Assembly (NCBI GenBank): GCA_003562815.1
Contig: PWTO01000173.1
Span: forward strand, 1-39,258
DNA length: 39,258 nucleotides
Direction: 5' to 3'
Source: Chromatiaceae bacterium
GTDB lineage: Bacteria; Pseudomonadota; Gammaproteobacteria; Chromatiales; Chromatiaceae
A program made the position numbers and the translations under genes. Of this stretch, positions 23,785-32,848 are shown piece after piece. The first letter of the stretch is position 1; each line of letters starts with the position of its first letter. A model generated the notes under the pieces. The model was not told the origin of the DNA and ran no database searches. It saw nothing but the letters and a program-made list of their open reading frames with translations.

Positions 23785-24492
23785 ATGGTCAAATCCATGA
23801 CACTGCGCGAGGCTTGGGCTGGCGAGGCCGACTGCCGAAACTGCGCATTGCGTACATCGGTCCTGTTTGCTGGACTCACCGAGCAGGACTTCGATCACAT
23901 CCACGAACCGATCGATCAGTTCGATCTGAAGCCAGGTACCCCGCTGTACCAGGCCGGCGAGGTCGGTGACTATATGTTCACCGTGCGCAGCGGTTCGCTC
24001 AAGCTCGTCCAATACCTGCCGGACGGCAGCCAGCGCATCGTGCGCATCGTGCGCGGCACCGACGTGCTTGGGCTCGAAGCCCTGCTCGGCAGCGCCTATC
24101 AGCACGACGCCGTGGCCCTCTCGCCGAGCGAGGTCTGCCGGTTCCCGACGCGCGTGGTCAAGGCCCTCAGCAAGGACAACCCAAGCTTGCACGAGGAACT
24201 GATGCAGCGCTGGCAACGCGCGCTCACCGAGGCCGACGCCTGGCTGACCGAACTCTCGACCGGCTCGGCGCGCCAACGCGTTGCGCGTCTGCTGCTGCGC
24301 TTGGTGCGCGATCGCGAATCGAGCGAGTGTCAGCTGTTCGGGCGCGAGGACATGGGCGCCATGCTCGGTATCACCACCGAGACCGCCAGTCGCACCATCG
24401 CCGGCTTCAAGCGCGAGAGCCTACTCGTCGAGTCACGGCCGAATCGCTTCCTGCTCGACATCCCCAATCTCACGCGGATCGCCGAGGATTGA
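23785..24492 (+). CDS. FNR/CRP-family transcription regulator
   Basis: A 235-residue regulator with a cyclic-nucleotide-binding-type sensor domain, a dimer helix and a C-terminal winged helix. The recognition helix reads 'TTETASRTIAGFK', with Glu, Ser and Arg in the positions FNR uses to read TTGAT. FNR-type cysteines at 17, 20 and 118 are present, corresponding to E. coli Cys20, Cys23 and Cys122. The position equivalent to Cys29 is Val26, so a normal 4Fe-4S site looks incomplete. It sits 104 bases upstream of the cyd operon, in the same direction, and is a plausible regulator of it. ATG 23797 is an alternative start. Confidence 0.85.
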   Translation: MVKSMTLREAWAGEADCRNCALRTSVLFAGLTEQDFDHIHEPIDQFDLKPGTPLYQAGEVGDYMFTVRSGSLKLVQYLPDGSQRIVRIVRGTDVLGLEALLGSAYQHDAVALSPSEVCRFPTRVVKALSKDNPSLHEELMQRWQRALTEADAWLTELSTGSARQRVARLLLRLVRDRESSECQLFGREDMGAMLGITTETASRTIAGFKRESLLVESRPNRFLLDIPNLTRIAED

Positions 24493-24544: not shown

Positions 24545-24558
24545 TTGACAGCTTTCAA
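24545..24558 (+). promoter_or_regulatory. Candidate FNR-type operator upstream of the cyd operon
   Basis: TTGACAGCTTTCAA contains TTGA-N6-TCAA and differs from the FNR consensus TTGAT-N4-ATCAA at one base in each half-site. It lies 38 bases before the ATG of the first operon gene. If it were centred at -41.5, transcription would start just before the ATG. The gene for an FNR-type protein lies directly upstream, which makes it the obvious candidate ligand. Confidence 0.4.
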
Positions 24559-24596: not shown

Positions 24597-25037
24597 ATGG
24601 AACAAACCCTGCTCAACGACCCTTATCCGCTCTTCGTGCTGAGGCTCGATCGTGACGAGATGCGTTACCAGAGCGTCGATGCGATCTGCGACTACTTTCG
24701 CCGCTGCATCGAGGTGCATCGCTGCGGCCAGTTTATCGCCGTCTTCGATCATTACGCCCATACCTGTAACCTGCCGGACGGTCAGGTAGACAGCGAGATC
24801 CGCGCGGCGAAGAATGTGCTGTTTTGCTTCGGCTTAGCCCTGCCGAGCCCCGAGATCCTTGGCCTCAGGCCGCGCTCGATCGGTGTCGCCGAGCTTGATC
24901 GGCAGTTCGTGATCAGCTTCATGGAAACGCCGATGCCGCTCGCCAACGCCGCGATGGAAGACTGGGCGCTCGGGCTGCGTCAGGAAAGCACCGACCCTCT
25001 CAACACCACATCGAACTCGGGATTCCAACCATGCTAG
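24597..25037 (+). CDS. Conserved small protein upstream of cydA (possibly DUF6858)
   Basis: A 146-residue soluble protein with no signal peptide. The visible pattern includes '[11 protein letters not shown]', '[14 protein letters not shown]', 'AKNVLFCFG' and '[10 protein letters not shown]...[20 protein letters not shown]'. I associate this pattern with a small family of unknown function found next to respiratory genes, perhaps DUF6858, but the DUF number is from memory and uncertain. Its 3' end overlaps the cydA start by 7 bases, so the two are translationally coupled. It may help cytochrome bd assembly or sense a ligand; this is inference. Confidence 0.65.
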
Positions 25038-26653
25038 AGAGCGCAATGGTCGAGCTATCGCGGTGGCAATTCGCCATCACCGCGATGTACCACTTCCTGT
25101 TCGTCCCGCTGACCCTTGGGCTCAGTTGGATGCTGGTGATCATGGAAAGCGTCTACGTGATGACGGGACGCCAAATCTATAAGGACATGACCAAGTTCTG
25201 GGGCAAGTTGTTCGGCATCAACTTTGCCCTCGGCGTCACCACCGGCCTGACCATGGAGTTCCAGTTCGGCACCAACTGGGCCTACTACTCGCACTATGTC
25301 GGCGATGTCTTCGGCGCGCCGCTGGCCATCGAAGGGTTGATGGCGTTCTTCCTCGAATCGACCTTCATCGGCCTGTTCTTCCTCGGCTGGGAGCGCCTGA
25401 GCAAGCGCCAGCATCTGATGGTCACCTTCCTTACCGCCGTCGGCTCCAACCTCTCGGCGATGTGGATTCTGATCGCCAACGGCTGGATGCAGTTCCCGGT
25501 CGGTGCCGAGTTCAGCTTCGAGACCATGCGCATGGAGATGGTCAGCTTCAGCGAGGTGCTGTTCAACCCGGTCGCGCAGGTCAAGTTCGTGCATACGGTG
25601 GCCGCTGGCTATGTCACCGGCGCGATGTTCGTCGCTGGCATCAGTGCCTACTACATGCTCAAGGGCCGCGATCTGGCGTTTGCCAAACGCTCGTTCTCGG
25701 TCGCGGTCGGCTTCGGCCTCGCCTCGGTGCTGTCGGTGATCTTGCTCGGCGACGAGTCCGGCTACGAGGTCGGCGATGTGCAGAAGGTCAAACTCGCCGC
25801 GATCGAGGCCGAATGGGACACCGCGCCCGCACCGGCACCGTTCACGCTCTTTGGCCTGCCGAGCAACGCCGATGAGGAAACCCACCATGCGATCAAGATC
25901 CCCTGGTTGATGGGCTTGATCGCCACCCGCTCGCTCAATCAGGAGGTCACGGGGCTGAAAGATCTGATGCACGAGCACGAGATCCGCATCCGTTCCGGGA
26001 TGATCGCCTATGACTACTTGCAGCGACTGCGCAGCGGCCAGAACACTGCCGGCAACCGCGCCATGTTTAAGGACCACATGGACGATCTCGGTTACGGACT
26101 GCTGCTCAAGCGCTACACCGACAATCCTGCCGAGGCCAGCGAGGCGCAGATCCAGCAGGCGGTGAAAGACTCGATCCCCAAGGTCGCGCCGGTGTTCTGG
26201 GCGTTTCGCATCATGGTCGCCGCCGGCTTCTGGATGCTGCTGCTGTTCGTGCTCGGTTTCTACTTCAACGCCAAGCGCCAGATCCAGGACAAGCCTTGGC
26301 TGTTGCGGGCGTTCTTGCTCAGCATCCCAGTGCCTTGGATCGCCGCCGAGACCGGCTGGTTCGTGGCGGAGTTTGGCCGCCAGCCCTGGGCCATCGGTGA
26401 GGTGCTGCCGACCTCGATTGCCGCCTCAAGCCTGACCACCAGCGATCTGATCATCAGCCTGGCCGCCTTCTTCGTGTTCTATACCGCGTTGTTTGTCATC
26501 GAGATGTTCTTGATGATCAAATTCGGTCGGCAAGGGCCGAGTTCACTGCACACCGGCAAGTATCACTTCGAGAAAGCCCCGGTCGAGCCGCCGGTCGGTG
26601 GTGGTCCGCCCTCGGCAACCGCACCCGCTCGCCAGCAGCGAGGAGATGTCTGA
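25031..26653 (+). CDS. cydA: Cytochrome bd ubiquinol oxidase subunit I
   Basis: A 540-residue membrane protein. His21 (MYHFLF, the b595/d ligand region), the b558 His in 'FVHTVAAGY' and the Met in 'FRIMVAAGF' are present, as are the conserved Glu pair of '[18 protein letters not shown]' and GRQPW. The Q-loop is long and carries the quinol-binding lysine and glutamate ([11 protein letters not shown]), so it is an L-type (long Q-loop) enzyme. With CydB and CydX it oxidises quinol and reduces O2 to water with high affinity. The start is coupled to the preceding gene. The C-terminal tail is Pro/Ala-rich, somewhat longer than in E. coli. Confidence 0.97.
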
Positions 26654-27795
26654 TGATCATCGACTACGAAGTCCTTAAATTCATCTGGTGGGTGCTGGTC
26701 GGCGTGCTGTTGATCGGCTTTGCGGTCACCGATGGCATGGACATGGGCGTCGGTACCCTGCTGCCGTTCCTGGGTAAGAACGACGATGAGCGCCGCGTCA
26801 TCATCAACACCATCGGCCCGCACTGGGACGGCAACCAGGTCTGGCTGATCACCGCCGGCGGTGCCATCTTCGCCGCCTGGCCGCTGGTTTATGCCACCGC
26901 TTTCAGCGGCTTCTACTTTGCGATGCTCTTGGCGCTGTTCGCGCTCTTCTTCCGGCCGGTCGGTTTCGACTACCGCAGTAAGATCGAGGATAGGCGCTGG
27001 CGTAACGCCTGGGACTGGGGGTTGTTCGTCGGTGGCGCGGTGCCGGCGCTGGTGTTTGGTATCGCTTTCGGAAACCTGCTGCAAGGCGTGCCCTTTTATC
27101 TCGATGAGCTGCTGCGGCCTTACTACACCGGCAACTTCTTCGGCCTGCTCAACCCCTTCGCGCTGCTCACCGGACTCGTTAGCCTCGGCATGCTGACCAT
27201 GCACGGGGCGATCTGGCTGCAACTGCGCACCAGCGAGCCGATCGCCACCCGCGCCAAGCGCTGGGCGCTCTTCATTGGGCTTGCGACCATCACCAGCTTT
27301 GCGCTCGCTGGCCTGGACATGTTCTTCTTCGTCGATGGTTTCAAAGTGGTGAGCATGCCGGCATTGGATGCGATCTCCAATCCGCTGGTCAAGGAGGTCG
27401 TGGTCGATACCCACGCTTGGCTAGACAACTATTATCAGTACCCTTGGACCTTGGAGTTCCCAGCCCTTGGCTTTGTCGGGCTTGGCGGTGCGATCCTGTT
27501 TTCGATGCTTAATCGCGCTGGGCTTGGACTGATCATGAGCGGCCTTGGCATCGCCGGCATCATCCTGACCGCCGGCGCGGCGATGTTCCCGTTCATCTTG
27601 CCCTCGAGCACCGATCCGAACAGCAGCCTGATCGCCTGGGACGCGACATCGAGCCATCTGACGCTGACGGTGATGTTCTGGGCGGCGGTGATCTTCATCC
27701 CCATCATCCTGAGCTATACCACCTGGACCTATGTCAAGATGTGGCGGCGCGTCACGGTCGAGGAAATCCGCGCGCAAGATCACTCGGCGTACTAG
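26653..27795 (+). CDS. cydB: Cytochrome bd ubiquinol oxidase subunit II
   Basis: A 380-residue membrane protein with eight or nine transmembrane segments. The typical N-terminus is 'VLKFIWWVLVGVLLIGFAVTDGMDMGVGTLLPFLGKND'; WDGNQVWLITAGGAIFAAWP and 'FRPVGFDYRSK' are signature segments. The ATG overlaps the cydA stop by one base (TGATG) with AGGAG 7 bases upstream. It forms the oxidase with CydA. Confidence 0.97.
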   Translation: MIIDYEVLKFIWWVLVGVLLIGFAVTDGMDMGVGTLLPFLGKNDDERRVIINTIGPHWDGNQVWLITAGGAIFAAWPLVYATAFSGFYFAMLLALFALFFRPVGFDYRSKIEDRRWRNAWDWGLFVGGAVPALVFGIAFGNLLQGVPFYLDELLRPYYTGNFFGLLNPFALLTGLVSLGMLTMHGAIWLQLRTSEPIATRAKRWALFIGLATITSFALAGLDMFFFVDGFKVVSMPALDAISNPLVKEVVVDTHAWLDNYYQYPWTLEFPALGFVGLGGAILFSMLNRAGLGLIMSGLGIAGIILTAGAAMFPFILPSSTDPNSSLIAWDATSSHLTLTVMFWAAVIFIPIILSYTTWTYVKMWRRVTVEEIRAQDHSAY

Positions 27796-27867
27796 ATCGG
27801 CCGCCGACGCGATCTCCCTGCGCCGGCCCGTGGCTGGCGCGCAACCTCTTTTTTGGAGCAGCAAGGC

Positions 27868-27990
27868 ATGTGGTACTTCACCTGGATTCTCGGCGTCCTG
27901 CTCGCCGTCGCCTTCGGCATTATCAACGTGATGTGGTACGAGTCCTCGCAGTGCATGGGGGATGCGCAAGACGATCAACCCTCGGCCTGA
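27868..27990 (+). CDS. cydX: Cytochrome bd small subunit CydX
   Basis: A 40-residue protein, MWYFTWILGVLLAVAFGIIN followed by VMWYE and a polar tail. The single transmembrane segment and the 'MWYFTWILG' start are diagnostic for CydX, which stabilises the haems of the bd oxidase. It begins 72 bases after cydB, with GGAG 9 bases upstream. The tail (SSQCMGDAQDDQPSA) is longer and more acidic than in E. coli. Confidence 0.95.
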   Translation: MWYFTWILGVLLAVAFGIINVMWYESSQCMGDAQDDQPSA

Positions 27991-28027
27991 GATGGCTCTG
28001 AACCTCTCTGAACGCCCCCAAGCCCCC

Positions 28028-28789
28028 ATGCAGGATTACCACCCCCGCCCCGACCTCCTCGCCGACCGCATCATCCTGATCACCGGTGCCGCCGAGGGGA
28101 TCGGTCGTGCGCTCGCCCTCGCCTGCGCCCAGCACGGCGCGACCGTGATCCTGAGCGGTGCGCGCGCGCAAGCGCTGGAGTCGATCTACGACGCGATCGT
28201 CGCCGCCGGCGGGCTGGAGCCGGCGAGCTTGCCACTGGATCTGGAGACGGCCGACGAGTCCTTGATGCTCGGCATCGCCACCACCCTCGGCGACGAGTTC
28301 GGGCGCCTCGACGGGCTGGCGCATACCGCGCACTACATCCCCTTCCTCAGCCGCATCGACGATTACGACGCCGAGCAGTGGGAGAAGGTGCTGCGCATCA
28401 ACCTCACTGCGCCCTTCTTGCTGACCCAAGCCTGCCTGCCGCTCCTGCGCACGGCCGAGGCCGGCTCGGTGCTGTTCCAGTCCGATCGCGTCGGCCGGCG
28501 CGCACTGGCCTACTGGGGCGCCTTCGCCGCCGCGATGTCCGGCATCGAGGCGCTGATGCAAACCCTGGCCGAGGAGACCGACGGCAACAGCCGCATTCGG
28601 GTCAACAGCATCGATCCCGGCGCCGTGCGCACTGCGCAGCGGCGGCAACTCTACCCAGCCGAAGATCCGAATACGCTGGCGCCCCCGGAGCAGATCATTA
28701 ACGCTTATCTCTACCTGCTCGGTCCCGATTCGCGCGGCCTAAGCGGACAGGCCCTGAGCGCGCAAACGCCGGGCGTCTTGCGAAAATAG
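28028..28789 (+). CDS. YciK-like short-chain dehydrogenase lacking the YxxxK motif
   Basis: A 253-residue SDR-fold protein. The N-terminal 'DLLADRIILITGAAEGIGRAL' matches the YciK family, and the glycine-rich TGxxxGIG motif (residues 19-26) is intact. Ser152 is kept, but the catalytic Tyr is Phe166 and the catalytic Lys is Met170 (GAFAAAM where YciK has GAYAASK), and the NAG motif reads TAH. Classical NAD(P)-dependent reduction is therefore unlikely. ATG 28028 fits the family start; ATG 27992, just after the cydX stop, and ATG 27962 are alternatives. It lies between cydX and the split transketolase, with no gap before the latter. Confidence 0.85.
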   Translation: MQDYHPRPDLLADRIILITGAAEGIGRALALACAQHGATVILSGARAQALESIYDAIVAAGGLEPASLPLDLETADESLMLGIATTLGDEFGRLDGLAHTAHYIPFLSRIDDYDAEQWEKVLRINLTAPFLLTQACLPLLRTAEAGSVLFQSDRVGRRALAYWGAFAAAMSGIEALMQTLAEETDGNSRIRVNSIDPGAVRTAQRRQLYPAEDPNTLAPPEQIINAYLYLLGPDSRGLSGQALSAQTPGVLRK

Positions 28790-29725
28790 ATGATGACGAC
28801 CGAGAGTGCACGCGTCGCCGACGCGGTCCGCCGTCGCGTGCTTGAGCATACCCTGCGCAACAACGGCGGCTATCTAAGCCAGGCCTGCTCGTCGGCCGAT
28901 ATCCTCGCGACCCTCTACCTGCGGGTCATGCGGTTCGGCCCCAGCATCGCCCCCTTGATCCCGCGCGCTTTTGCCGGCGTGCCCAGCCGCGAGAACCCCG
29001 ATGCCTTCACCGGCGCCGGTTACAACGGCGCCCGCGCGCCGGAGCTGGATCGCTTCATCTTCTCCCCCGTGCATTACGCGCTCGTCCTCTATGCGCTGCT
29101 GATCGAGCTTGGCCGACTTGGCCCGGACGCGTTGCAGCGCTTCAACACCGACGGCAGCACGGTCGAGTTGATCGGCGCCGAGCATTCGCCCGGCCACGAG
29201 GTCACTGCCGGCTCGCTTGGTCAGGCCCTGAGCCAGGCTGGTGGTATCGCCCTGGCGCGCCGGCTGCGGGGCGAGTCCGGGCGGGTCTGGGTCTTCATGT
29301 CCGATGGCGAGTTTCAAGAGGGCCAGACCTGGGAGGCGTTCGCCGCGCTGGCCCATCATCGCATCGGCAACCTCGGTGTCTACATCGATGCCAATGCCCA
29401 GCAATGCGATGGACCGATGGCCGATGTGATGACCATCGAGCCGCTCGCCGATCGGCTGCGTGCGTTTGGCGCCGAGGTGCATGAGGTCGATGGCCACGAC
29501 GGTGACGCCTTGGCGGCGCCCGCGCTCGCGCGCCTGTCCACCGCCGCTCCGACCGCCGCCGCCCCGACCAGGCCGCTGGTCGTCATCGCCCGCACCGATC
29601 CCTGCTGCGGCATCGAGCTGCTGCGCGAGCGCGCGCCTAAATTGCACTATCTTCGCTTCAAGACCCGCGCCGAGCAGGACGCCTACGAAGACTTGCTCGA
29701 ACACTGGCAGGGCCGCACCCCATGA
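28790..29725 (+). CDS. Transketolase, N-terminal (TPP-binding) subunit
   Basis: A 311-residue protein corresponding to the N-terminal half of transketolase. The TPP diphosphate/Mg motif is near residues 171-202 (SDG...N, Ser replacing the first Gly of GDG; then DANAQQCDG). The segment 'GAEHSPGHEVTAGSLGQALSQAGGIALA' is the usual SLGQG-type strand. The conserved 'GH' of the N-terminal 'GHPG' motif is Tyr28 (NNGGYLS), as in the family of split transketolases that includes the apulose-4-phosphate enzyme, as far as I recall. The ATG directly follows the SDR stop. It needs the next gene's product to form an active site. Confidence 0.85.
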   Translation: MMTTESARVADAVRRRVLEHTLRNNGGYLSQACSSADILATLYLRVMRFGPSIAPLIPRAFAGVPSRENPDAFTGAGYNGARAPELDRFIFSPVHYALVLYALLIELGRLGPDALQRFNTDGSTVELIGAEHSPGHEVTAGSLGQALSQAGGIALARRLRGESGRVWVFMSDGEFQEGQTWEAFAALAHHRIGNLGVYIDANAQQCDGPMADVMTIEPLADRLRAFGAEVHEVDGHDGDALAAPALARLSTAAPTAAAPTRPLVVIARTDPCCGIELLRERAPKLHYLRFKTRAEQDAYEDLLEHWQGRTP

Positions 29726-29741
29726 GCCAGGACCACAGACA

Positions 29742-30776
29742 ATGATCGAGCTGGTCACCCGCCCCCATCGCTCGAACCTGATTCGCTGGGCCGCAGAACG
29801 CCCCGAGGTGCTGGTGCTCGGCGCCGATCTCACCGCCTCCTGCGAGGCCGATGGCTTTCGCGACCAGTACCCGGAGCGCTTCTTCTCGTTCGGCATGGCC
29901 GAGCAGAACATGCTCGGCTTCGCCGCTGGGCTCGCGCGCGAAGGCTTTTTCCCGTACATCCACACCTTCTCGGTGTTCGTCACCCGGCGTCCATTCGATC
30001 AGTTGGCGATGAGCATCGCCTATCCGAACCTGCCGGTGCGCCTCATCGGCTTCCTGCCCGGCATCACCACGCCGGGCGGCGTCACCCATCAGGCTATCGA
30101 CGATATTGCCCTGATGCGCGCGGTGCCGAACATGACCGTGCTCGAAGCCGGCGATGCGACCGAGGTCGAATCCATGCTCGATGTGGCCCAGGCGATCGAC
30201 GGGCCGGTTTATGTACGCCAACTGCGTGGCGAGGTGCCCAGGCTGTTCCCCGCCGATCGGCCGCTGCGGCTTGGCCAGGCGCGGCTGCTCGGCGGCGGCA
30301 CCGATCTGGCGGTGATCAGCAGCGGCGTCTGCACTGAAGAGGCCCAAGGCGCCGTTGCCGCGCTGCGTCGTCGGGGGGTTGCCACCAGCCACCTGCATGT
30401 CTCCACCCTCAAGCCCTTCGCCGATCCGCAGCTCATCGAGCAGATCGCCAACGCCCGCTATGGCGCGATCACGATGGAGAACCACGGCATCATCGGCGGT
30501 CTCGGTAGCGCGCTTGCGGAACAGCTCGCCGAGCAAGGCATCGGCAAGCGGCTGATCCGGCTCGGGCTGCGCGACACCTATGCCCACGGCGCCAGCAAGC
30601 CCTACCTGATGCGTGAATACGGGCTCGACGCAGCGGCGCTGGTGCATGCCGCCGAGACCCTGATCGGCGACTCGCTCGGGATTGATGACGCTGTCCTGGC
30701 CGAAGCTGCGGCCAACGCACGCGCCGAGGCGCAGGGCGAGACCTTAGCCAAGGCCGACAAGACCGAGGATCTCTAA
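29742..30776 (+). CDS. Transketolase, C-terminal subunit
   Basis: A 344-residue protein corresponding to the pyrimidine-binding and C-terminal domains of transketolase. The catalytic Glu54 that activates TPP is in FSFGMAEQNMLGFAAGLA. It starts 16 bases after the N-terminal subunit gene; earlier in-frame codons overlap that gene and lack family sequence. A 2-carbon ketol transfer is the expected chemistry, but the sugar substrate is not known. The C-terminal 40 residues are Ala/Glu-rich. Confidence 0.88.
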   Translation: MIELVTRPHRSNLIRWAAERPEVLVLGADLTASCEADGFRDQYPERFFSFGMAEQNMLGFAAGLAREGFFPYIHTFSVFVTRRPFDQLAMSIAYPNLPVRLIGFLPGITTPGGVTHQAIDDIALMRAVPNMTVLEAGDATEVESMLDVAQAIDGPVYVRQLRGEVPRLFPADRPLRLGQARLLGGGTDLAVISSGVCTEEAQGAVAALRRRGVATSHLHVSTLKPFADPQLIEQIANARYGAITMENHGIIGGLGSALAEQLAEQGIGKRLIRLGLRDTYAHGASKPYLMREYGLDAAALVHAAETLIGDSLGIDDAVLAEAAANARAEAQGETLAKADKTEDL

Positions 30777-30780
30777 TCAA

Positions 30781-31953
30781 TTGAACAGGCCCGAGCCCAG
30801 TCTGTCACTCAGCGGCGAGCGCTTCACCGCAGTCTACCGCCTCTGCGGCGCGGCGGCCGAGGTCGAGGCGCGCGCCCGCGCGATCTGTCTTGAGCAGACC
30901 GTCGAGTTCCCGCAGGCCCTGATCCCGAACGAGGCGATCCGCGACCAGATCGTCGGCCAGATCGCCGCCATCATCCCCCGCGCCCTTGATGATGGCAGCG
31001 ACGGCTTCGAGGTCGCGATCCGCTACCCGATCGAGAGCGCCGGGCGCGAGCTGACCCAGTTGCTCAATGTCCTGTTCGGCAATGTCGCACTCCAGCCCGG
31101 CGTGCGGCTGCAGCGCATCGACCTGCCGCCAAGCCTGCTGCAGCACTATCCTGGACCTCGCTTCGGCATCGCCGGGCTGCGGCAACGTCTCGGCGTGCGC
31201 GAGCGCCCGCTGCTCTGCACCGCGCTGAAGCCGATGGGGCTGAGTCCGACCGAGCTGGCGGAGCTGGCCTATCAGCTTGCCCTCGGCGGCATCGATCTGA
31301 TCAAGGACGATCACGGCCTGAGCGATCAGCCCTTCTGCCCGTTCGACGAGCGCGCCAGCCGCTGCGCCGAGGCCGTCGCCCGCGCCAATCGGGAAACCGG
31401 GCACGCCAGCCTGTACCTGCCGAATGTCACCGCGCCCGCCGACGAGGTCGCCGTGCGCGCCCAACGCGCGCGCGCACTCGGCGCCGGCGGGCTGCTGGTC
31501 TGTCCGGGCCTGACTGGGCTCGATGCAATGCGCGCCCTCGCCGACGACGAGGCACTGGCATTGCCGATCTTGAGTCATCCGGCGCTGCTCGGCGGCCTCA
31601 GCCTGGGGCCGCATCAGGGCCTAGCGCACGGACTGCTGTTCGGCACCCTGGCCCGGCTCGCCGGCGCCGATGCGACCATCTTCCCGAGTCACGGCGGGCG
31701 TTTCGCGTTCACCGCCACCGAGTGCCGCGAGATCGCGACCGCCGCCTGCGCGCCGCTGCCTGGGCTCGCGCCGATCTGGCCAGTCCCCGCCGGTGGGATG
31801 CATCTGCAGCAGATCCCCGAGCTGGTGCGCTTCTACGGGCGCGACAGCATGCTGCTGATCGGCGGTGACCTGCATGCCGGCCCGGATCTCAGGGCCCGCT
31901 GCCAGGCGTTTCGGTCGCTCGCCGCACAGGCTTGCGAGCAACACACCGAATGA
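30781..31953 (+). CDS. RuBisCO-like protein (form IV)
   Basis: A 390-residue homologue of the RuBisCO large subunit. The Lys175 equivalent is Lys150 (LKPMGLS), but Lys177 is Met152. The carbamylation Lys201 equivalent is Lys175 and Asp203 is Asp177 (IKDDHGL), while Glu204 is His178. His294 (His266) and His327 (His304) are kept, loop-6 Lys334 is absent, and Ser379 is Ala337. CO2 fixation on RuBP is therefore excluded. KDDHGLSDQ is, as I recall it, the pattern of non-photosynthetic rhizobial/Bordetella-type RLPs linked to apionate degradation (3-oxo-isoapionate-4-phosphate), but that activity is inference here. The start is TTG 30781, 4 bases after the transketolase stop. Unknown substrate. Confidence 0.9.
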   Translation: MNRPEPSLSLSGERFTAVYRLCGAAAEVEARARAICLEQTVEFPQALIPNEAIRDQIVGQIAAIIPRALDDGSDGFEVAIRYPIESAGRELTQLLNVLFGNVALQPGVRLQRIDLPPSLLQHYPGPRFGIAGLRQRLGVRERPLLCTALKPMGLSPTELAELAYQLALGGIDLIKDDHGLSDQPFCPFDERASRCAEAVARANRETGHASLYLPNVTAPADEVAVRAQRARALGAGGLLVCPGLTGLDAMRALADDEALALPILSHPALLGGLSLGPHQGLAHGLLFGTLARLAGADATIFPSHGGRFAFTATECREIATAACAPLPGLAPIWPVPAGGMHLQQIPELVRFYGRDSMLLIGGDLHAGPDLRARCQAFRSLAAQACEQHTE

Positions 31954-31957
31954 TTGT

Positions 31958-31971
31958 TTGACAATTGTCAA
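31958..31971 (+). promoter_or_regulatory. Perfect palindrome TTGACAATTGTCAA, candidate FNR/CRP-type operator
   Basis: A perfect 14-base palindrome (TTGAC-N4-GTCAA) 5 bases after the RuBisCO-like stop. It is followed by a -10-like TATCAT at 31984-31989. It lies within the 247 bases upstream of the secreted W/Y-rich protein gene and overlaps the place of a -35 element. An FNR/CRP-family protein is a good candidate binder. Confidence 0.45.
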
Positions 31972-32200: not shown

Positions 32201-32848
32201 ATGAAACGTCTCATTCTCTCGGCCTCCGCGCTCACCCTCGTCCTGTCATCCATGACCGCCGCAGCCTGGTGGGCCAATCCCTTCCACGGCCCCTACTCTG
32301 GTCCTTATGGCCCTCACGACTACGGCGCGCCCTATGCTTACGCCCCGCCGCCGTCCCCCCAGCAGCTCCACGCGGTGGCCGAGCGCCAGCGCGAAGCCGC
32401 CATCGAGATGATGGAGGCCCGACGCCAGGCGATGGAGAGCGAGCGCGGCGAGGGCGCCCTGCCGATGCCAGAGAGGCCCGAGTTCCCGGACATGCCGGCA
32501 ATGCCGACGTTCCCCGAGATTCCAAACTATGGTGCGCGGCCAGCGATGCCTGAGTTCACGCTGGATTCGGACCAACATCAGGCCGAAATCGACGCCTACC
32601 ACGCCGCGCTCAAGCAGCATGCGGCCGAGCGCCGTGCCGCGATGCAGGCCCTGAGCGAACAACGCCGCGCCGTCGCCGAGCAGCGTCGGCAAGAGTGGCT
32701 GTGCAGCCGTCAGGCGATGCGGCCCCTGCCTCAGGCTGCTCTGGCGCGAGGATGCGCGCCGGCTGGCAACAAGACCGAGACTGACGGCAACGCCGAGTCC
32801 AGCGATCAGACCGCCGACTCGGCACCAGCCACCAACCAGGCGAGCTGA
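32201..32848 (+). CDS. Secreted W/G/P/Y-rich protein, possible sulfur-globule protein (SgpD-like)
   Basis: A 215-residue exported protein. The signal peptide is about 22 residues (ending TAAA). The first 35 mature residues are rich in Trp, Gly, Pro and Tyr (AWWANPFHGPYSGPYG, then YGAPYAYAPP). Next come a proline/methionine-rich part (repeated MPxFP) and an Ala/Arg/Glu/Gln coiled coil. This layout resembles sulfur-globule envelope proteins of purple sulfur bacteria, in particular the coiled-coil SgpD of Allochromatium as I remember it. Such a protein would coat periplasmic sulfur globules. AAGG lies 8 bases before the ATG. A perfect palindrome lies upstream and a strong terminator follows. Confidence 0.55.
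   Translation: MKRLILSASALTLVLSSMTAAAWWANPFHGPYSGPYGPHDYGAPYAYAPPPSPQQLHAVAERQREAAIEMMEARRQAMESERGEGALPMPERPEFPDMPAMPTFPEIPNYGARPAMPEFTLDSDQHQAEIDAYHAALKQHAAERRAAMQALSEQRRAVAEQRRQEWLCSRQAMRPLPQAALARGCAPAGNKTETDGNAESSDQTADSAPATNQAS

Follow-up and report, generated by a model that had tools for sequence, protein, structure and literature searches.

A described route for salvage of methylthioadenosine (MTA) that involves a RuBisCO-like protein (RLP) is the MTA-isoprenoid shunt of R. rubrum and R. palustris, which uses MtnP, MtnA, a DeepYkr RLP and a cupin, the MTXu-5-P methylsulfurylase (R. palustris RLP1 and cupin: PMC5893883). Isomerisation by the RLP has been demonstrated for the homologues of both organisms (R. 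palustris: PMC5893883); RLP1 of R. palustris converts 5-methylthioribulose-1-P to 1-methylthioxylulose-5-P (MTXu-5-P) and 1-methylthioribulose-5-P at 3:1, with a kcat of 1.3 per second, and the cupin acts on the RLP1 product, both enzymes being proven (PMC5893883). Another RLP in methionine salvage is MtnW of Bacillus, a diketo-methylthiopentyl-1-P enolase of the YkrW clade that belongs to an oxygen-dependent pathway with MtnD. The DHAP shunts (MtnP/MtnA and the class II aldolase Ald2) also handle methylthioribulose-1-P without an acireductone dioxygenase, but they do so by aldol cleavage and employ neither an RLP nor a transketolase. Among split transketolases, that of Carboxydothermus hydrogenoformans (6YAJ/6YAK) has a solved two-subunit architecture with a ThDP site. 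A search of the open-access literature found no link between a transketolase and either an RLP or methionine salvage.

The stretch of DNA analysed here (the window, 39,258 nucleotides) forms a single contig in a draft genome (3.2 Mb in 321 contigs, 95.5% complete) that has Halochromatium roseum (Chromatiaceae) among its close relatives. Gene calls in high-GC genomes were made with a codon-position caller and tblastn. Eight genes on the forward strand occur in the order DUF6858-cydA-cydB-cydX-SDR-TKN-TKC-RLP, separated by gaps of -7, -1, 72, 37, 0, 16 and 4 bases; the coordinates and the Pfam/NCBIfam matches agree with the initial annotation on both points. The DUF6858 gene (24597–25037; Pfam) lies upstream of cydA, and is near cydA in congeners too. 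It is followed by the genes for cytochrome bd subunits I (cydA, 25031–26653) and II (cydB, 26653–27795) and for CydX (27868–27990), all assigned by Pfam/NCBIfam, and then by an SDR of the YciK family (28028–28789; NCBIfam PRK08945, score 270 against a cut-off of 269). Next come the two subunits of a split transketolase-like enzyme (TK), the N-terminal, ThDP-pyrophosphate subunit TKN (28790–29725; Pfam Transketolase_N) and the C-terminal, pyrimidine-binding subunit TKC (29742–30776; Transket_pyr and Transketolase_C), and last a DeepYkr-like RLP with a TTG start (30781–31953; RuBisCO_large). The RLP and the split TK are very probably the functional core of this set, forming an oxygen-independent branch of MTA salvage in which a ThDP enzyme replaces the cupin. 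That reading rests on what was observed of the gene content and linkage, of the co-occurrence of RLP and TK, and of the exchange of partners.

The best PDB match of the RLP is 3QFW (E 4e-80, 273 bits), which we take to be R. palustris RLP1, and both the scores and the tree place this structure, rather than MtnW (189) or Photo RLP (141), as its nearest solved relative. In the alignment the active-site signatures KDDHGL and GGRF[AS][FY] are common to the window RLP, its homologues and 3QFW; MtnW, in contrast, belongs to another clade and lacks the KDDHGL and GGRFAF signatures. From these features, the function of R. palustris RLP1 and the homologues linked to mtnK/mtnA, the window RLP is predicted to be a 5-methylthioribulose-1-P 1,3-isomerase. 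A second RLP fragment (G000:C289:8-637; loci L002/L082), located at a contig end and containing an internal stop, shows ~31% identity to the window RLP and is probably of the Photo type.

The closest solved relatives of the TK subunits are the chains of the Carboxydothermus split transketolase (TKN matching 6YAK, the N chain, and TKC matching 6YAJ), and the two enzymes share the two-subunit architecture and the ThDP site. The active site was compared in 47 homologues using the numbering of E. coli TktA. Residues D155, N185 and E411 of the canonical ThDP/metal site are kept in all 47, as are H473 and R520, while R358 and S385, which bind the substrate phosphate in transketolase, are kept in nearly all. 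The canonical substrate site (H26, H100, H461 and D469) is found in none of the 47; H26 is uniformly replaced by Tyr, H461 by Phe and D469 by Gly, and the position of H100 has no matching His. In place of the canonical motifs SGHPGG, GHPD and EDGxSHQ of 6YAJ/6YAK, the RLP-linked group displays GGYLSQ, [LM]IGAEHSPG and [PA]GGxTHQ. Four other split transketolases share the H26 to Tyr change, but not the PGGxTHQ motif. In transketolase the equivalent of H100 contacts the C1 hydroxyl of the donor. The loss of this His would be consistent with a donor carrying a methylthio group on C1, although the invariant His of GAEHSPG, being nearby, could substitute for it.

Among 194 genomes of the family to which the window belongs, close RLP homologues occur in 45. 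A TKC homologue is present in 40 genomes, all of them within these 45 and none among the other 149, and in many of the co-occurring genomes RLP and TK are not adjacent. The Fisher value for this co-occurrence (2e-36) is uncorrected for kinship and overstates independence, because the family genomes are related. If the RLP product is the substrate of TK, an alternative enzyme, the cupin of the MTA-isoprenoid shunt, is expected in the five genomes that have RLP but no TK. On a Terrarubrum plasmid the RLP gene adjoins a cupin gene, as in that shunt, and there is no annotated TK within 9 kb. With this RLP-linked cupin as the query against the 194 genomes, strong matches (E<1e-40) occur in exactly the five genomes concerned (G033, G035, G107, G127 and G156), as expected, and the next best match is at 4.6e-17. 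These five carry the cupin version with closely related RLPs, while neither the window genome nor any TK-bearing genome among the 194 has a close homologue of the cupin methylsulfurylase; in the window genome the split TK stands in its place. Genus g35 holds both cupin-type and TK-type RLP genomes, and the RLP tree requires at least three changes between the cupin and TK labels, including the R. palustris/Terrarubrum pair, one inside g35 and one at G033. The acireductone dioxygenase MtnD (PF03079) is found in 23 of the 194 genomes and is absent from the window genome and from all 45 RLP genomes. O-acetylhomoserine (OAH) sulfhydrylase occurs in 43 of the 45 RLP genomes vs 97 of the 149 others.

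TKN, TKC and RLP are also linked in many genera of the window's family, in one MAG each from Elusimicrobia and actinobacteria, and on plasmids of Rhizobium, Ensifer, Shinella, Mariluticola, Ponticoccus and Vibrio. An operon mtnK-mtnA-TKN-TKC-RLP, with a sugar ABC transporter alongside, is present in Rhizobium rosettiformans, Mariluticola, Shinella and Ensifer. In Ponticoccus the order is nucleoside phosphorylase, amidohydrolase, mtnA, molybdoenzyme, TKN, TKC, RLP. The actinobacterial MAG has, beside these genes, ones for a methylthioribose kinase (381 bits; the cut-off is 275), for a thioinosine phosphorylase (229.6 bits; the cut-off is 223) and for an amidohydrolase that falls in the MTA/SAH deaminase group. 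The window genome has mtnA, as have all four of the genomes that were reached through loci. Some findings weigh against MTA salvage. In the window itself the RLP and TK genes have no neighbouring mtn gene; mtnA and a deaminase homologue are on another contig of the genome. Neither MTA/MTI phosphorylase nor OAH sulfhydrylase was detected in this draft genome, and the latter was not found in G132 either. Both are present in all seven congeners searched, and for this reason the missing phosphorylase is put down to the draft state. In a spirochaete RLP genome no TK was found, the RLP contig being only 3.4 kb.

Several of these loci have further features. The molybdopterin oxidoreductase between mtnA and TKN in the MTA-salvage operon of Ponticoccus alexandrii (L121, 5789–8065) is perhaps a reductase of methylthio S-oxides. 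Plasmid loci of Marinovum algicola (L122, 8062–10005) and Paracoccus seriniphilus (L123, 8062–10005) contain TKN-TKC pairs that share the active-site signature of the RLP-linked group but have no RLP nearby, a further point against the salvage reading; the neighbouring genes, divergently transcribed, encode a molybdoenzyme, an FGGY kinase, a dehydrogenase and a class II aldolase, and may provide a different route to the substrate of this TK. In Vibrio nigripulchritudo (L118, 9054–13673) TKN-TKC-RLP is followed by an FGGY kinase in place of mtnK/mtnA, with sugar transporters, and the RLP forms a long branch in the RLP tree.

The pathway proposed would start with conversion of MTA to 5-methylthioribose-1-P, either by a deaminase and thioinosine phosphorylase or by a nucleosidase and MtnK, after which MtnA would give 5-methylthioribulose-1-P. 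The RLP would isomerise this to MTXu-5-P, a reaction known from homologues, so that up to this point the route shares with the MTA-isoprenoid shunt mtnA, a DeepYkr-like RLP and the same predicted intermediate. MTXu-5-P is xylulose-5-P with CH3S replacing the C1 hydroxyl, and we infer that the split TK, not a cupin methylsulfurylase, takes it and cuts it between C2 and C3 to glyceraldehyde-3-P (G3P) and a methylthio-C2-ThDP intermediate. While the shunt yields DXP and methanethiol, the predicted products of the RLP-TK module are thus G3P and a methylthio-C2 unit. That the genes serve MTA/methylthioribose salvage, with the split TK acting on the RLP product, is in our judgement highly likely, whatever the final step releases.

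For that final step, the methylthio-C2-ThDP adduct may expel methanethiol and leave an acetyl unit, in an elimination like that of phosphoketolase, which expels water; O-acetylhomoserine sulfhydrylase would then fix the methanethiol into methionine. This outcome, to which we give about an even chance, is favoured because methanethiol is also what the cupin, the exchange partner of TK, leads to, and because OAH sulfhydrylase is enriched in RLP genomes. Release of methylthioacetaldehyde is possible at a clearly lower likelihood, and passage of the methylthio-C2 unit to another acceptor is less likely again. The fuller proposal, that the split TK is a ThDP carbon-sulfur lyase converting MTXu-5-P to G3P and methanethiol and leaving acetate or acetyl phosphate, is tentative and falls somewhat short of even.

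The strongest rival keeps the same module and differs only in its end, the TK yielding G3P and 2-(methylthio)acetaldehyde, and the aldehyde being reduced to methylthioethanol to join the later steps of the DHAP-ethylene/DHAP-methanethiol shunt. Simple cleavage between C2 and C3 followed by protonation is ordinary for ThDP enzymes, salvage in R. palustris is known to pass through 2-(methylthio)acetaldehyde (PMC5893883), and SDR genes occur near some clusters (L008, L118), but there is no consistently linked reductase, and the cupin with which the TK is interchangeable leads to methanethiol. As a methylthioacetaldehyde reductase the window SDR is a weak candidate because its YxxxK position reads FAAAM (motif YWGAFAAAM in the window and congeners); the catalytic Tyr is Phe, as also in genus g38, and the Lys is Met in the window's genus, where g38 has FSAAK or FAAAK. 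The catalytic YxxxK pair of a classical SDR is missing. A role for it as the general aldehyde reductase of the pathway was rejected, since it is unlinked elsewhere and has lost this pair. On balance the aldehyde route is rather unlikely.

Far less probable is that the substrate of the module is 5-deoxyribose derived from 5'-deoxyadenosine, the RLP forming 1-deoxyxylulose-5-P for cleavage by TK. Other bacteria have a DHAP shunt that takes 5'-deoxyadenosine as well as MTA (PMC10986504, PMC12632272), but 1-deoxyxylulose-5-P is of use as it stands, as an isoprenoid precursor, which would make a TK needless, and the exchange with the cupin implies a methylthio substrate.

The initial annotation had joined cytochrome bd, SDR, TK and RLP in one functional operon of an oxygen-linked pathway. 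The tight spacing in the window, the FNR-like regulator and sites, and a cyd-SDR-TK order that is kept in the genus are in line with this, and the gap between cydX and the SDR, where a promoter or terminator would have spoken against joining, contains neither a consensus sigma-70 promoter nor an intrinsic terminator (a weak negative). When the window proteins were mapped onto loci of ~45 relatives, however, cyd and SDR adjoined TK together only in the window's own genus, and no cyd was found near TK or RLP outside it. In the congener G066 the cyd-SDR-TK block and the RLP are on separate contigs, and the co-occurrence of RLP and TK holds irrespective of cyd. The SDR gene also lies 5' of TKN in g38, but not in the many other TK-RLP clusters. 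The initial annotation had named a lack of conserved linkage in relatives as a refuting condition, and cyd is indeed unlinked outside the genus, while the SDR-TK pairing reaches just one further genus. The run of eight genes is therefore for the most part peculiar to this lineage; of the joining first proposed, the TK-RLP linkage, kept across phyla, stands. The cyd genes and the SDR are neighbours of the RLP and split TK, not pathway steps, and an oxygen-linked operon of all four is very unlikely.

A CRP/FNR-type regulator gene does lie upstream, as initially annotated (23785–24489); it is transcribed towards DUF6858-cyd, and its product has a CxxC near the N terminus and scores below the Fnr cut-off. 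FNR-like matches number three in the window vs 0.48 expected. One, TTGACAGCTTTCAA at 24545–24558, has 1 mismatch and is upstream of DUF6858-cyd, and another, TTGACAATTGTCAA at 31958–31971, is a perfect palindrome just 3' of the RLP stop and upstream of an ORF at 32201.

Apiose/apionate pathways contain the same two superfamilies, a split transketolase (AptAB) and RLPs (OiaX/OiaT). A comparable catabolism of sugar acids or branched sugars, which the FGGY kinase and sugar transporter of the Vibrio cluster, without mtnK/mtnA, might recall, is the least probable reading and was rejected on score and gene neighbours: the OiaX model (NF042437) gives the window RLP 89.5 bits where its cut-off is 700, the clusters of rhizobia, Ponticoccus and the actinobacterial MAG have linked mtnK, mtnA and MTA phosphorylase/deaminase genes, and the cupin swap fits MTXu-5-P. 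The "oxygen-linked sugar-acid or carbon-salvage module" first suggested is thus retained as a salvage module of TK and RLP, with MTA/methylthioribose as the probable substrate and with neither the sugar-acid nor the oxygen-linked element.

If MTA salvage by RLP and split TK is correct, the cupin/TK swap inside one genus provides a clean test system for it. A ThDP carbon-sulfur lyase would be a new enzyme activity, and, if methanethiol is released, the module would be a further biological, oxygen-independent source of that volatile. The proposal would assign a role to a group of RuBisCO-like proteins that is widespread, as well as to a group of split transketolases for which the usual annotation is transketolase or DXP synthase, and would place an oxygen-independent branch of methionine salvage across purple sulfur bacteria, rhizobial plasmids, roseobacters, actinobacteria and elusimicrobia.
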